Positions 31,280 to 63,457 of a DNA stretch of 64,000 nt are shown in pieces. How positions within the stretch are numbered: the first letter of the stretch is position 1; each line of letters opens with the position of its first letter. Both the position numbers and the translations under genes were made by a program. The stretch lies in contig RDXE01000025.1 in NCBI GenBank assembly GCA_004292755.1, forward strand, positions 124,001 to 188,000. The letters are read 5' to 3'. This DNA comes from Alphaproteobacteria bacterium. Its GTDB lineage: Bacteria > Pseudomonadota > Alphaproteobacteria > Elsterales > Elsteraceae. The notes beneath the pieces were generated by a model that had not been told where the DNA came from, did not search any database, and saw only the letters and a program-made list of their open reading frames with translations.

Positions 31280-31408
31280 ATGGCAAACTCACCTCCTGTC
31301 GCGGCGCGGCGGTCGTTTTTCGTGGCCGGATCGCTGGAGCGTCTCGCTCTGGTCGCTGCTGTTCTGGCGCCCTTGTGGCTGGCTGTCTGGTGGGCCTTGC
31401 ATGACTAA
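31280..31408 (+). CDS. 42-residue single-pass membrane protein ahead of metal ABC transporter
   Basis: Short frame M-A-N-S-P-P-V-A-A-R-R-S-F-F-V-A followed by GSLERLALVAAVLAPLWLAV and WWALHD, stop at 31406-31408. It has a basic N-terminus and one membrane helix of about 20 residues. The last 8 bp overlap the start of the ABC ATPase gene (ATGACTAA), which implies coupled translation. No Shine-Dalgarno is obvious (nearest purine run is poor). Too short for most gene finders. No family recognised; possibly a small regulatory subunit of the transporter. Confidence 0.5.
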   Translation: MANSPPVAARRSFFVAGSLERLALVAAVLAPLWLAVWWALHD

Positions 31409-32147
31409 GGGCCACGCGCTTGGCGGTGTGCGGCTGAACAATGTGACGGTGGCCTTCGATGGACATCCGGCGCTGCATCACATCTCCGGTCGGTTTCAGT
31501 CTGGCACCCTGACTGCTGTGGTGGGACCCAATGGGGCGGGCAAGTCCACGCTGCTGCGCGCCATCGTGGGTGATCTCACCCCCTCCAGTGGCACTGTCAC
31601 CACCGACAGTGATCGAATCGCCTATCTGCCCCAGGCGTCCCGCCTCAATCATGACCTGCCGATCACAGTGGCCGATGCTGTGCTGATGGGTCGTTGGCGC
31701 AGGCTCGGTTTGCATCAAGCCGCCCGACAGGAGGATCTCGCCGATGCGTCAGCGGCTTTGGCAGAGGTAGGGCTCGGCGGGTTTGAGCGGCGGGCGGTCT
31801 CCTCCCTCTCTGTGGGGCAGCGCCAGCGCGCCCTGTTTGCTCGGCTGATGCTCACCGACGCCGACACGGTGTTGCTGGACGAGCCCTTTGCCGCGATCGA
31901 CCAGCGCACCACCTCGGATCTGCTGCGCGTGGTTCAACAGTGGCACGCCAGCCGCCGCACGGTGATCGCCGTCCTCCACGATCTGGATCAGGTGCGCAGC
32001 GCCTTCCCGTTGACCCTGCTGGTCGCCCGCACCGTCGTGGAGTGGGGTGCCACAGAAACCGTGCTGACCGCCGCGAACCTTGCCCGCGCGCGCTCCATGA
32101 GCGAGGCAAGTGATACCCACGCGGATTGGTGTCGCGACGCCGCCTGA
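31401..32147 (+). CDS. metal ABC transporter ATP-binding protein (Zn/Mn type)
   Basis: Cytosolic ATPase subunit of 248 residues. Walker A is GPNGAGKST (about residue 44), Q-loop AYLPQAS, signature SSLSVGQRQRALFARLM with Walker B VLLDEPFAAID, and the H-switch VLHDLDQ. The closest architecture is ZnuC/AztA-type importers for Zn or Mn. It is read from an 8-nt overlap with the microprotein, and its stop overlaps the permease start (TGATG). There is no binding-protein gene in the cluster. Confidence 0.88.
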   Translation: MTKGHALGGVRLNNVTVAFDGHPALHHISGRFQSGTLTAVVGPNGAGKSTLLRAIVGDLTPSSGTVTTDSDRIAYLPQASRLNHDLPITVADAVLMGRWRRLGLHQAARQEDLADASAALAEVGLGGFERRAVSSLSVGQRQRALFARLMLTDADTVLLDEPFAAIDQRTTSDLLRVVQQWHASRRTVIAVLHDLDQVRSAFPLTLLVARTVVEWGATETVLTAANLARARSMSEASDTHADWCRDAA

Positions 32148-33031
32148 TGTCGGTGTTGGACGCCCTTTACGCGCTGCTCATCGCACCGCTGGTGGATTTC
32201 GCCTTCATGCGCCGGGCGTTGGTTGCCTGTGTGGCCTTGGCACTAGCCGGGGCGCCGCTGGGGACCTTGTTGATCGTCCGTCGGATGAGCCTGATGGGCG
32301 ATGCGTTGGCCCATGCTGTGCTGCCCGGTGTGGCGATGGGCCATCTGCTGGCAGGCATGTCGGCCTTCGCGATGGTGACGGGCGGGCTAATCGCTGGCCT
32401 GACCGTCGCTGTGTTGTCCGTGGTTGCCACCCGCACCACACCGCTGCGGGAAGATGCAGCCTTCGCTGGCTTCTACATTGCGTCTTTGTCGCTTGGCATC
32501 GCGATTCTGTCGATGTCGGCCACAACCACCGATCTGGTTCACATCCTGTTTGGCACTGTGCTGGCTGTGGATGATGTTGCGTTGTTGACGATCGCAGGCC
32601 TGGCCAGCGCGGTGTTGGTGGCTCTGGCGCTCAGCGCACGCGCCTTGATCATCGAGGCGTTTGATCCTGCGCTGCTGGATGTTGGCGGCGTGCGCTCCGG
32701 CGGGGTGTGGAATGGCGTGCTGCTGGGGTTGGTGGTGGTGTTGCTGGTGGCAGGGTATCAAGCGGTTGGCACCTTGATGACCGTCGGGCTGTTGATCCTG
32801 CCGCCACTGATCGCCCGGTTTTGGGCCGACACCTTGGAAGGACAAGTGGCAGCCGCGATGATCGCAAGCCTGCTTGGGGTCTATACCGGCCTGATGATGT
32901 CCTTCCACTGGAACCTGCCCACGGGCCCGGCAATCACACTTGGGCTGGCCGCAACTGCCATCGCCTCCGCTCTGTTAGGACCCGTCAGCAGCGTGCGGGT
33001 CCGGCGGCGCCAACGGCATCGGGTTGCTTGA
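32147..33031 (+). CDS. metal ABC transporter permease (ABC-3 family)
   Basis: Inner-membrane permease of 294 residues with about eight helices. Signature ABC-3 segments are FMRRALVACVALALAGAPLG, MGDALAHAVLPGVAMG, FDPALLDVGGVRSG and VGTLMTVGLLILPPLIARFWA. Family members import Zn, Mn or Fe. ATG 32147 overlaps the ATPase stop. The C-terminal tail is Arg-rich. A substrate-binding protein must be encoded elsewhere. A TTG at 33028 overlapping the stop could couple the following kinase. Confidence 0.88.
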   Translation: MSVLDALYALLIAPLVDFAFMRRALVACVALALAGAPLGTLLIVRRMSLMGDALAHAVLPGVAMGHLLAGMSAFAMVTGGLIAGLTVAVLSVVATRTTPLREDAAFAGFYIASLSLGIAILSMSATTTDLVHILFGTVLAVDDVALLTIAGLASAVLVALALSARALIIEAFDPALLDVGGVRSGGVWNGVLLGLVVVLLVAGYQAVGTLMTVGLLILPPLIARFWADTLEGQVAAAMIASLLGVYTGLMMSFHWNLPTGPAITLGLAATAIASALLGPVSSVRVRRRQRHRVA

Positions 33032-35524: not shown

Positions 35525-36151
35525 ATGACCTGGGACAGCTTTGGCCTGTATCTCATCGCCGCCATCGGTCTGTCGTTGACACCGGGGCCGAATGGGCTGC
35601 TGGCACTCACCCATGGCACGCGCTATGGCGTCCGCGCCACGACCGCAACCATTCTGGGCGGTGGTCTGGGCTTTCTGGTGTTGATTGCGCTGTCGCTGGC
35701 GGGAATGGGGGCGTTACTCGCCGCCTCTCACACCCTGTTCACGGTGGTGAAGTGGGTGGGTGGGCTGTATCTGGTCTGGCTTGGCATCCAGCTCTGGCGC
35801 GCGCCGCCAATGGCCGCGACACTGTTGATTGATCCAACAATTGAAACTGTCAAAGCATCCAAGCTGTTTCGCCAGGGATTCCTCGTTGCCGTGTCAAACC
35901 CGAAAGGCTTGATCTTTTTTTCAGCATTTCTGCCGCAGTTCATGAGCCCGGAAGCCGGGTTCTTGACCCACCTCGCCGTGTTCGGCGGCACGTTTGTGTG
36001 TGTTGAGATCTTGTATGAAGTGATGCTGGCGGCCACGGCCCGCCGCATCGCACCCGTATTGAGCCGCCATGGCCGGTGGTTCAACCGCACCACTGGCGCC
36101 ACCTTCATCGGCATGGGTGCGATTTTGGCGACGGGCTCTCGCACCAGCTAA
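35525..36151 (+). CDS. LysE family amino-acid exporter
   Basis: Inner-membrane exporter of 208 residues with six hydrophobic segments. The family N-terminus is seen (TPGPNGLLALTHGTRYG), then GGLYLVWLGIQLWR and RQGFLVAVSNPKGLIFFSAFLPQF read in two pieces, which are the RhtB/LysE blocks. It exports an amino acid or derivative. It closes the operon starting at the metal transporter or the kinase. The alpha-r8 sRNA gene begins 130 bp downstream. Confidence 0.9.
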   Translation: MTWDSFGLYLIAAIGLSLTPGPNGLLALTHGTRYGVRATTATILGGGLGFLVLIALSLAGMGALLAASHTLFTVVKWVGGLYLVWLGIQLWRAPPMAATLLIDPTIETVKASKLFRQGFLVAVSNPKGLIFFSAFLPQFMSPEAGFLTHLAVFGGTFVCVEILYEVMLAATARRIAPVLSRHGRWFNRTTGATFIGMGAILATGSRTS

Positions 36152-36270: not shown

Positions 36271-36276
36271 TATACT
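36271..36276 (+). promoter_or_regulatory. -10 element of the alpha-r8 sRNA
   Basis: TATACT sits about 7 bases before the probable 5' end of the sRNA. A matching -35 is not clear (TTGTTG at 36252-36257 is 13 bp away), so the promoter call is tentative. Confidence 0.4.
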
Positions 36277-36280
36277 GCGT

Positions 36281-36363
36281 TGCACCATCCGCGATGGTGG
36301 TCCGCTTCGGCGGACGTTTCCTCCCTGAACTTTGCGGCCGCCTTTCGGGGCGGCCGTTTTTTT
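36281..36363 (+). ncRNA. alpha-r8 family small RNA (suhB / MmgR type)
   Basis: Trans-acting regulatory sRNA. Three hairpins in order: CACCATC-CGC-GATGGTG (36283-36299), TCCGC-TTCG-GCGGA (36301-36314) and a terminator (36335-36356) followed by seven T. Between the second and third is the unpaired pyrimidine core TTTCCTCCCT (36317-36326), followed by GAAC. This is the hallmark I recall for the alpha-r8 family (Rfam suhB RNA; Sinorhizobium MmgR). The core can pair with ribosome-binding sites, usually with Hfq. It lies alone between lysE and a binding-protein gene, on the same strand as both. Exact ends are inferred. Confidence 0.8.
36335..36363 (+). terminator. rho-independent terminator of the alpha-r8 sRNA
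   Basis: CGGCCGCC (36335-36342), loop TTTCGG, GGCGGCCG (36349-36356), then T7. A perfect 8-bp GC stem with a long T-run. Confidence 0.9.
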
Positions 36364-36441
36364 GCCGTGATGCTGGTTGCGCCCATGGGGCTTGGTTCGG
36401 CATCCTCCGCGCCGGATTTATGACATGCCGGAGGAAACATC

Positions 36442-37245
36442 ATGGACCGCCGCACGCTGCTGGCAGGATTGACCGGTCTGGGACTGCTGGCTGCGGCTCC
36501 GGCTGAGGCGCGCGGATGGGAGGCGATCCGCCGCTCTGGCCGCTTGCGTGTCGCAGTGGAGCCGGACGCCCCACCCTTCGCCTTCGCTCCACCCGCGGGC
36601 GGGCTTGTAGGCTATGACATTGATGTCGCGACCGCGATTGCCGCGCGGTTGGACGTGCAGGTGAGCTTCCTGGCGCCGGGCTGGAACCGCATTCTGGCAG
36701 GCGGCTGGGGCAATCTGGCGGACATTGCCGTCGCTGGCATCACCCCCACGTCGGTGCGTCGGCGCACGCTGGACCTGCCAGTTCGCTACGGCACGGCCGC
36801 TGTCGTGGCGATTGCACCGCGTGATGGCGCAGCTGGGCAAGCCGTTGATTTGGCTGGACAAACCGTCGCCGTCAGCGCCAACACCACAGCCGAGGCCTAC
36901 CTCGCCAATCGCTTGGTGCTGGACGACGCCGTGCGCGTGCCCCGCCGGTTCGAGGCGGCCGAGGTGCTGCGCCTCGTCAATGATCGCGATGTTATCGACC
37001 ATGTCACCCGTGGCAAGGTGGATGGCGGCGTGGTCACCTTGGCAGAGGCGTTGACCGCCGAACGCGCTGGGCTCAGCCTGAAAATCCTGCCGGGCCTGTT
37101 GTATGTCGAGCCGATTTCTGTGGCGGTTCCCCGCGGTCAGCGCGAGGTTGCCGCGCGTGTGCGTGATGCTGTCGACGGATTGCGTGCAGATGGCGTGCTT
37201 TCCCGTCTTTCTCAGACTTGGTTCGGCATCGATTTGGCGCAATAA
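36442..37245 (+). CDS. amino-acid-type ABC transporter substrate-binding protein
   Basis: Periplasmic binding protein of 267 residues (SBP_bac_3/PAAT family). The signal is Tat-like (MDRRTLLAGLTGLGLLAA then AAPAEARG). Mature part: RVAVEPDAPPFAFAPP, VGYDIDVATAIAARL and DIAVAGITPTSVRRRTLDL, matching polar amino-acid binders. No permease or ATPase of the PAAT type is next to it, so it is an orphan or feeds a transporter elsewhere. The sRNA precedes it by 80 bp. Confidence 0.85.
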   Translation: MDRRTLLAGLTGLGLLAAAPAEARGWEAIRRSGRLRVAVEPDAPPFAFAPPAGGLVGYDIDVATAIAARLDVQVSFLAPGWNRILAGGWGNLADIAVAGITPTSVRRRTLDLPVRYGTAAVVAIAPRDGAAGQAVDLAGQTVAVSANTTAEAYLANRLVLDDAVRVPRRFEAAEVLRLVNDRDVIDHVTRGKVDGGVVTLAEALTAERAGLSLKILPGLLYVEPISVAVPRGQREVAARVRDAVDGLRADGVLSRLSQTWFGIDLAQ

Positions 37246-42067: not shown

Positions 42068-42478
42068 ATGGACGCGCTTCGCCCCCTGATCACTGCAGCC
42101 CTGGCGGCGCGGCAGAATGCGTACGCGCCATACTCCCGCTTTCTGGTGGGTGCCGCAGTGTTGGCCGATGGCGCCATCTTCGCCGGTTCGAATGTGGAGA
42201 ATGCCGCCTATCCGCAGGGCCAATGCGCCGAAGCGTCCGCAATCGGTGCGATGGTGACGGCTGGCAAACGCACCTTGTCCTGCGTCGTGGTGGTTGGAAC
42301 GGGCGAGGCGCTGTGTACGCCCTGCGGTGGCTGTCGCCAACGTCTGCGGGAATTCGGCGCCCCTGACCTCCCGATCCATTTGGTGGGGGAGGATGGCGCC
42401 CTGCGCCGCACCGTAACCCTTGCTGACTTGCTACCGCTGTCGTTTGGACCAGACAATCTGGGGCTCAATCATGACTGA
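42068..42478 (+). CDS. cdd: cytidine deaminase
   Basis: Zn-dependent enzyme of 136 residues converting (deoxy)cytidine to (deoxy)uridine. The substrate block is YAPYSRFLVGAA, the zinc ligand and proton shuttle are in GQCAEASAIGAMV (Cys-Ala-Glu), and CTPCGGCRQRLREF gives the other two Cys. Length fits the homotetrameric class. The stop overlaps the phosphorylase start by 8 bp (ATGACTGA). Confidence 0.95.
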   Translation: MDALRPLITAALAARQNAYAPYSRFLVGAAVLADGAIFAGSNVENAAYPQGQCAEASAIGAMVTAGKRTLSCVVVVGTGEALCTPCGGCRQRLREFGAPDLPIHLVGEDGALRRTVTLADLLPLSFGPDNLGLNHD

Positions 42479-61586: not shown

Positions 61587-61696
61587 GCAGAACGGTTGCG
61601 CTTTCACCCCTGACACCGTTACATCTCAGTGCGACATCTCGCCTGAGCCAACAGGCGGATGGTGCCGGGAGCCACCGGATTTTGGGGAGGAAACGC

Positions 61697-63457
61697 GTGG
61701 AGCATGTGTGGATGCGGCGCCTGCTGGCGTCGGCCGCAATTGCGGCGTTGAGCGCACCGATGAACGCCGTTGCGTTGGAGTGGACCAGCGGCGAAACCTC
61801 GATCCGCTTTGATACAACGCTCAGTCTGGGTGCCGCATGGCGCGTGCAAGACCGAGATCGCAGCTTGATCGGGGTGGCCAATGGCGGGAGCGCGTACTCC
61901 CTCAACGCCGATGATGGCAACCTGAACTATGGCCGCGGCCTGATCTCGTTTGTACCGAAGGCAACCCATGATCTTGAAGTGAAGTACCGCGGTCGCCACG
62001 GCTTGTTTGTGCGCACCAGCTACTTCTGGGACTTTGTGCAGGCAGACCGGTCATCGGCCGACCGTACCCGGCTAACCGATGCAGCCGTGGACCGCACCGG
62101 ACGTGCCTTCTCCCTCCTCGACGCATATGCGTTCACGCGACTGGACCTGGGCGGCCTGCCGCTCGATCTGCGCATCGGTCAGCAGGTGCTGAGCTGGGGT
62201 GAGAGCACCTTCATCCCCAACGGCATCAACATCATCAGCCCCTTTGACGTCGGCAAGCTGCGTCAGGCTGGGGCAGAGTTGAAGGAAGCCTTCCTGCCGG
62301 TGCCGATGATCTCCGCCTCGCTTGGCTTGACGCCAAACCTGCGGGTGGAGGGCTTTTGGCAGGTGCGCCACCGCAACACCGAGTTGGAGCCTCTGGGCAC
62401 GCCATTCTCCACCAACGATGTGTTGAGCCCAGGCGCCCAGACGGCGTTCCTGGCCTTTGGCCTGCCGCCCTCACGCGATACCCTGCCCTTCTCACCGGGC
62501 ACCGCGATTGCCCGCGACCCGGACCGCGACGCCAAGCACGCCAATCAATTCGGTGTGGCCGCGCGGTTGCTGGTGCCCGCCCTGAACGACACCGAGTTCG
62601 GCGTCTATTTCATCAATTACAACAGCCGCGCGCCGATTCTGTCCGCACGCACGGGCTCGTGGACCAATCCGTTGACCAGTCAGGTGCAGCTGGTCGGCTC
62701 GTCGCGCTACTTCGCTGAGTATCCGAATGACATCCAGCTGTATGGCGGCAGCTTCAACACCAGCCTGCCCGGTGGCATCTCGCTGCAGGGTGAAATCGCC
62801 TACCGCACCGGCCAGCCGCTCCAGATCGATGATTCAGAGATGCTGTTCTCGGCCCTGTCGTCTCTGCCTGGCACGGCAGGCGCTGCGTTCAGCCGGTCGC
62901 AGCTGGGTCCGACTGGCCAGAATCGCGAGATCAGTGGCTTTCGGCGCCATGATGTGATCACAGCCCAGGCCACCGCGACGAAGGTGTTTTCCCAGGTGCT
63001 GGGCGCGGACCAATTGTCTGTGGTTGGCGAGGTTGGCTTCACCCAAGTGCGCGACATGCCCAGCAAAGGCGTGCTGCGGTACGAGGGGCCGGGAGCCAAC
63101 ACATCGGGCAATCCCTTCTTCACCTCGGCCCGGCTGCAACCTGCCACCCAGGGTGATGGCTTTGCTGACGGCTTTTCCTGGGGTTATCGCCTGTCGGCCC
63201 GGCTGGATTACTCTAACGCCATCGGGCCGATTGCCGTCTCCCCCAGCGCATCCTTCGCCCATGATGTCAGCGGCACAACACCCCTGCCGCTTGGCACCTT
63301 CGTTGACGGGCGCATGGCGGCCACCGTCGGTGTCAGCTTCAACTATTTGAGCCGCTACACGCTTGACCTCAGCTACACCCGCTTCTGGGGTGCAGGCGAC
63401 AAGAACCTGTTGAGCGACCGCGACTTTGTCGCCGCGGTCGGTCGTTTCTCGTTCTAG
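61697..63457 (+). CDS. DUF1302 family outer-membrane-type protein
   Basis: Protein of 586 residues with a signal peptide (RRLLASAAIAALSAPMNAVA). The rest is a beta-rich, aromatic-containing barrel: IRFDTTLSLGAAWRVQDRD, NYGRGLISFVPKATHDLEVK, then YTLDLSYTRFWG and a terminal Phe (GRFSF), typical of outer-membrane beta-barrels of the DUF1302 family. GTG 61697 has GGGGAGG six bases before; the TTG at 61682 is without support. DUF1302 genes usually pair with DUF1329, as here, and often occur with lipid or sterol metabolism genes. Confidence 0.85.
   Translation: MEHVWMRRLLASAAIAALSAPMNAVALEWTSGETSIRFDTTLSLGAAWRVQDRDRSLIGVANGGSAYSLNADDGNLNYGRGLISFVPKATHDLEVKYRGRHGLFVRTSYFWDFVQADRSSADRTRLTDAAVDRTGRAFSLLDAYAFTRLDLGGLPLDLRIGQQVLSWGESTFIPNGINIISPFDVGKLRQAGAELKEAFLPVPMISASLGLTPNLRVEGFWQVRHRNTELEPLGTPFSTNDVLSPGAQTAFLAFGLPPSRDTLPFSPGTAIARDPDRDAKHANQFGVAARLLVPALNDTEFGVYFINYNSRAPILSARTGSWTNPLTSQVQLVGSSRYFAEYPNDIQLYGGSFNTSLPGGISLQGEIAYRTGQPLQIDDSEMLFSALSSLPGTAGAAFSRSQLGPTGQNREISGFRRHDVITAQATATKVFSQVLGADQLSVVGEVGFTQVRDMPSKGVLRYEGPGANTSGNPFFTSARLQPATQGDGFADGFSWGYRLSARLDYSNAIGPIAVSPSASFAHDVSGTTPLPLGTFVDGRMAATVGVSFNYLSRYTLDLSYTRFWGAGDKNLLSDRDFVAAVGRFSF

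Follow-up and report, generated by a model that had tools for sequence, protein, structure and literature searches.

Does the short intergenic segment downstream of a lysE-type gene encode a genuine small regulatory RNA (sRNA), and if so, which signal would govern it and on what would it act? In the window, i.e., the whole 64-kb stretch of DNA analyzed here, the covariance model RF00519 (suhB, now described as MmgR) gave a significant match at 36295-36370 on the plus strand (43.6 bits vs. a gathering score of 41, E = 1.1e-5 over the whole 64-kb window), at the very place where the initial annotation had proposed an alpha-r8 sRNA, and it was the only Rfam family above its gathering score within the window. 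Positions 36283-36363 thereby combine a covariance score above gathering with a single-stranded 10-mer following a hairpin and a Rho-independent terminator, the features by which alpha-r8 RNAs are recognized. The gene, its parts and its neighbors are arranged as follows.

35525-36151, plus strand: lysE-type translocator gene, upstream neighbor (PF01810, 111.5 bits).
36283-36363, plus strand: alpha-r8 (MmgR/SisA-type) sRNA gene, transcript of about 81 nt with a predicted 5' end (RF00519 match, fold z-score).
36283-36299, plus strand: hairpin 1, CACCATC/GATGGTG (fold, homologue covariation).
36300-36315, plus strand: hairpin 2, GTCCGC-TTCG-GCGGAC (fold, homologue covariation).
36317-36326, plus strand: single-stranded 10-mer TTTCCTCCCT, the anti-Shine-Dalgarno core (sequence and fold; invariant in seven same-build copies).
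36334-36363, plus strand: intrinsic terminator, a 10-pair stem at 36334-36357 with seven T at 36357-36363 (fold and consensus scan).
36442-37245, plus strand: family-3 solute-binding protein (SBP) gene, downstream neighbor (PF00497, synteny).

Folding of 36281-36363 gave a minimum free energy (MFE) of -41.5 kcal/mol, compared with -28.6 +/- 2.96 kcal/mol for dinucleotide shuffles (z = -4.35), and none of 200 shuffles was as stable. The stretch UUUCCUCCCU at 36317-36326 is unpaired in both the MFE and the centroid structures and belongs to an open region, 36316-36333, between hairpin 2 and the terminator stem. The single-stranded core and the run of seven T described from the sequence were thus both found in place, while the claim of three hairpins needs rewording: three stems are present, but the third is the terminator itself, leaving two hairpins plus a terminator. 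The RF00519 match begins within the 3' arm of hairpin 1, which is thus not covered by the Rfam model. A consensus scan also recovered the terminator, albeit near chance level (1 found vs. 0.6 expected). AbcR1 and AbcR2 (alpha-r15) are likewise alphaproteobacterial Hfq-type sRNAs with CU-rich anti-Shine-Dalgarno motifs and partial similarity to RF00519, but they carry two such motifs on transcripts of 114-120 nt (PMC7143759), whereas the shorter RNA studied here has one; with this single motif and RF00519 as the sole family above cut-off, an AbcR identity was rejected.

Seven copies of the same build as the window's were aligned from the upstream palindrome (see below) through the terminator. 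The core is invariant among them. Hairpin 1 has 95.9% of its cells paired and two pairs changed on both sides, and hairpin 2 has one pair changed on both sides with 81% paired, an underestimate because two of the sequences are shifted by one column in the alignment there. The covariation score was reached by one of 500 shuffles, and slid controls stayed well below it; given seven sequences, we regard these compensatory changes as modest support for the predicted stems. One might argue from the Rfam score, which lies just above the cut-off, that this is a silent or decaying copy devoid of function, yet the compensatory changes, the invariant core and a promoter motif kept in six relatives speak against this and make it scarcely credible. 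Upheld by covariance model, core, terminator and homologues alike, 36283-36363 is a genuine new copy of the alpha-r8 family (MmgR, SisA-D) and, in itself, an ordinary additional member of a well-described family. The sRNA and the relatives together mark the organism as an alphaproteobacterium. Besides, an alpha-r8 subtype with ATTCCTCCCT replacing TTTCCTCCCT, preceded by GGTGGCG or a similar motif and by a longer 5' region, was observed in several genera of the bacterial family and once outside it (L001, L091, L093, L086, and L075).

The placement of the sRNA between lysE and an amino-acid binding-protein gene, as initially described, is confirmed by the matches to PF01810 and PF00497. The SBP gene opens a run of genes comprising Bmp, ABC transporter parts, cdd, and a PNP-like gene. 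A genome of the same genus (L037) shows the order histidine kinase, HAD hydrolase, sRNA, solute-binding protein, and Bmp, with no lysE between the HAD gene and the sRNA. In other genera of the bacterial family, sRNAs of the same build follow znuC-znuB (two genomes) or precede cdd (two genomes), genes that the window also contains at a distance from the sRNA (znuCB at 31401-33031, cdd at 42068-42478), while in one further genome the sRNA follows pssA near a contig end. This order of neighbors in relatives suggests that the sRNA site is probably old in the bacterial family and that lysE was gained or lost later, so that the window's locus is probably an old locus of the family rather than a stray or unique insertion. 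As a side observation, the cytidine deaminase gene lies directly downstream of the same-build sRNA in two other genera (L038, 4483-5010; L041, 3990-4553), and the window's cdd lies toward the end of the run of nucleoside-uptake genes downstream of the sRNA.

The RF00519 cut-off is exceeded by three copies in the genome, one each on C78, C2 (the contig holding the window), and C67; the C67 copy has a same-genus counterpart in the same place, and the neighbors of both other copies are unrelated to those of the window copy. Six N-formylglutamate amidohydrolase (FGase, PF05013) genes were found, on C42, C3, C52 (two), C57, and C72, none of them beside an sRNA copy. Assignment to the FGase-linked subfamily alpha-r8s1 was rejected, as no such gene adjoins any of the three copies. 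The locus had been called unfamiliar for the family, which holds insofar as it is not the FGase-linked alpha-r8s1 locus, but the lysE-SBP setting itself is ordinary and shared with relatives.

Could the RNA instead work chiefly in cis, serving the SBP gene as a leader or attenuator? The two share a strand, 78 bases separate the T run from the start codon, and nine bases of the sRNA core region are complementary to the SBP ribosome site GGAGGAAAC (36430-36438), with which the core pairs at -17.1 kcal/mol. However, a strong terminator ends the RNA ahead of the SBP gene, the same-build sRNA of other genera stands before cdd or after znuCB, and the two further copies of this genome lie among unrelated genes, and we consider a predominantly cis-acting role very improbable.

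We then turn to the control of this trans-acting candidate. A simple sigma-70 scan of the region upstream of the sRNA returned no passing promoter; inspection of the sequence pointed to the following elements.

36271-36276, plus strand: probable -10 element TATACT, with the same spacing kept in a same-genus copy (L026) and a weak -35 (sequence).
36276-36284, no strand assigned: palindrome TGCGTTGCA, putative PhaR/AniA operator over the -10/+1 region, fitting YGCRNYGCR and overlapping the last base of the -10 element.

In Sinorhizobium meliloti, the PhaR (AniA) operator contains YGCRNYGCR within a longer consensus, and PhaR shifts the mmgR promoter in EMSA, a shift abolished by mutation of the palindrome (PMC12542648). 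Fifteen distinct alpha-r8 copies were counted in the bacterial family, and each has the palindrome at 20-90 nt upstream of its core; these are not 15 independent events, and binomial values, which treat related copies as independent, overstate the significance. Of 29 copies from the remaining families of the class, 19 carry it and 10 do not. Flanking 70-nt windows contain the palindrome at a background of 7.5% (bacterial family) and 6.9% (other families), and shuffled upstream stretches gave mean counts of 1.15 against the 15/15 and 2.26 against the 19/29. The enrichment nonetheless remains large, since the palindrome accompanies the paralogues regardless of their locus and spacing. Outside the bacterial family, linkage to FGase proved irrelevant, as 9/14 linked and 10/15 unlinked copies have it. 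Judged from these sequence patterns, the palindrome is likely a PhaR binding site in the sRNA promoter. A separate locus (L010; G041 contig C7, 54432-55030) packs three alpha-r8 genes in tandem into some 600 bases, and a separate PhaR-type palindrome precedes each of them.

The genome encodes one PhaR (on C70), one Hfq, and two phasins. Upstream of phasin 1 we found TGCACTGCA and TGCACCGCA, and TGCGGTGCA lies 51 nt before the start of phasin 2. The strict palindrome TGCRNYGCA occurs at 594 sites in 4.21 Mb, most of which are surely not operators; at this density of one site per 7 kb, chance would not be expected to place it ahead of each of the three sRNA genes and of both phasin genes. Of 36 genomes checked, 32 have PhaR, and among them are most of the genomes in which the alpha-r8 copy is devoid of the palindrome, so that PhaR presence alone does not predict the palindrome. 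Absence of PhaR as a test of the palindrome was likewise uninformative, since nearly all alpha-r8 genomes have PhaR.

These observations also bear on the proposal of an alpha-r8 antisense sRNA whose promoter is independent of PhaR (e.g., NtrC-controlled or constitutive), with the palindrome serving another factor or the 5' end of the RNA. The S. meliloti promoter dyad also serves NtrC-dependent control (PMC8401924), the promoters of the Caulobacter siblings are reportedly unrelated (PMC12559287), and a third of the copies outside the bacterial family have no palindrome despite PhaR. In addition, the palindrome of the window copy overlaps the predicted 5' end of the transcript, and hence some of its conservation could serve the RNA itself. 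Nevertheless, the palindrome is kept throughout the family copies at distances from the core that range between 41 and 73 nt, which argues against its being a mere part of the transcript, and both phasin genes of the genome carry it upstream as well. PhaR-independent control thus appears unlikely to us, albeit a competitor to be taken seriously.

As to targets, the initial annotation held that the core could pair with ribosome sites of many genes in the window. Against the 59 called start regions of the window, the core indeed reached a mean of -11.2 kcal/mol, compared with -7.5 kcal/mol for random 30-mers; the anti-Shine-Dalgarno tail of 16S rRNA, however, gained likewise (-10.1 vs. -7.4 kcal/mol), and a shuffled version of a longer sRNA segment paired with the start regions equally well as the native one. 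The strongest local pairing was with the DUF1302 gene (61682; Pfam match), where 0.07% of random 30-mers were as strong, with 59 genes tested; its start region GGGGAGGAAACG (61680-61700) is complementary to the sRNA core region over 11 contiguous bases. DUF1302 was dropped as a conserved target, as its same-genus orthologue has GGGGAGGAGAGA in place of GGGGAGGAAACG, which leaves a match of no more than Shine-Dalgarno length. Pairing stronger than with random DNA therefore stands, while the idea of many local target genes does not: the pairing is what any Shine-Dalgarno sequence gives, and the extended DUF1302 match is lost in the same-genus genome. Exact 10-mer targets occur at eight places genome-wide. 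Two of these are sRNA genes, and a single one, belonging to a binding protein on C17, qualifies as a convincing start region; this candidate was rejected as well, its same-genus orthologue retaining only GGGAGGAA, a match of Shine-Dalgarno length. The start regions of the phasin genes pair weakly with the core. No conserved target was found among the start regions of the window and the genome-wide exact 10-mer sites when compared with same-genus orthologues.

Characterized relatives point to how the RNA may act. SisA of Caulobacter crescentus represses CCNA_03574 through the 10-mer by direct pairing, as proven by compensatory mutations (PMC12559287), and MmgR limits phasins and the storage polymer PHB, both of which rise upon loss of its core (PMC8401924). 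As the studied alpha-r8 RNAs work in this manner, we infer action through the 10-mer here as well, and by this analogy the sRNA at 36283-36363 probably blocks ribosome-binding sites. We favor, with a probability of roughly 0.7, a PhaR-repressed, Hfq-assisted antisense alpha-r8 sRNA that occludes Shine-Dalgarno sites as storage polymer builds up. When little PHB is present, PhaR would sit on TGCGTTGCA and keep the sRNA gene off; once PHB granules form, PhaR would be drawn onto them, and the phasin and alpha-r8 genes would be released together. The RNA, helped by Hfq, would then pair via UUUCCUCCCU with the Shine-Dalgarno regions of selected mRNAs, probably those of transport and storage genes, and block their translation.

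The window copy resembles MmgR of S. meliloti (alpha-r8s1, RF00519) in its match to the covariance model, the single-stranded UUUCCUCCCU, the terminator and the PhaR-type promoter palindrome. It differs in not lying beside an FGase gene, whereas mmgR is FGase-linked, in carrying the palindrome on the -10/+1 region instead of between -35 and -10, and in being one of three copies, compared with one in the S. meliloti genome. With SisA-D of C. crescentus it shares the occurrence of several dispersed siblings, the same core and a likely Hfq-assisted anti-Shine-Dalgarno action; SisA-D, however, were reported to have unrelated promoters with no common upstream motif (PMC12559287), while all copies counted in the bacterial family share the palindrome. 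This shared PhaR-type palindrome is the sole point that goes beyond what we found described, and parts of it may be contained in Lagares 2016 and Ceizel Borella 2018.

On these sequence comparisons, the palindrome would extend the mmgR link known from S. meliloti to paralogues and to other families. We surmise, with slightly more confidence than doubt, that alpha-r8 sRNAs, together with their paralogues, make up a branch of the PhaR regulon that is both old and widespread, and that PhaR controls both phasins and alpha-r8 RNAs across much of the Alphaproteobacteria. The shared palindrome predicts that one carbon-storage sensor drives most alpha-r8 RNAs, which, if true, would bring together two connections of this family with carbon metabolism that were each observed on their own, one to PHB in Sinorhizobium and one to carbon starvation in Caulobacter.
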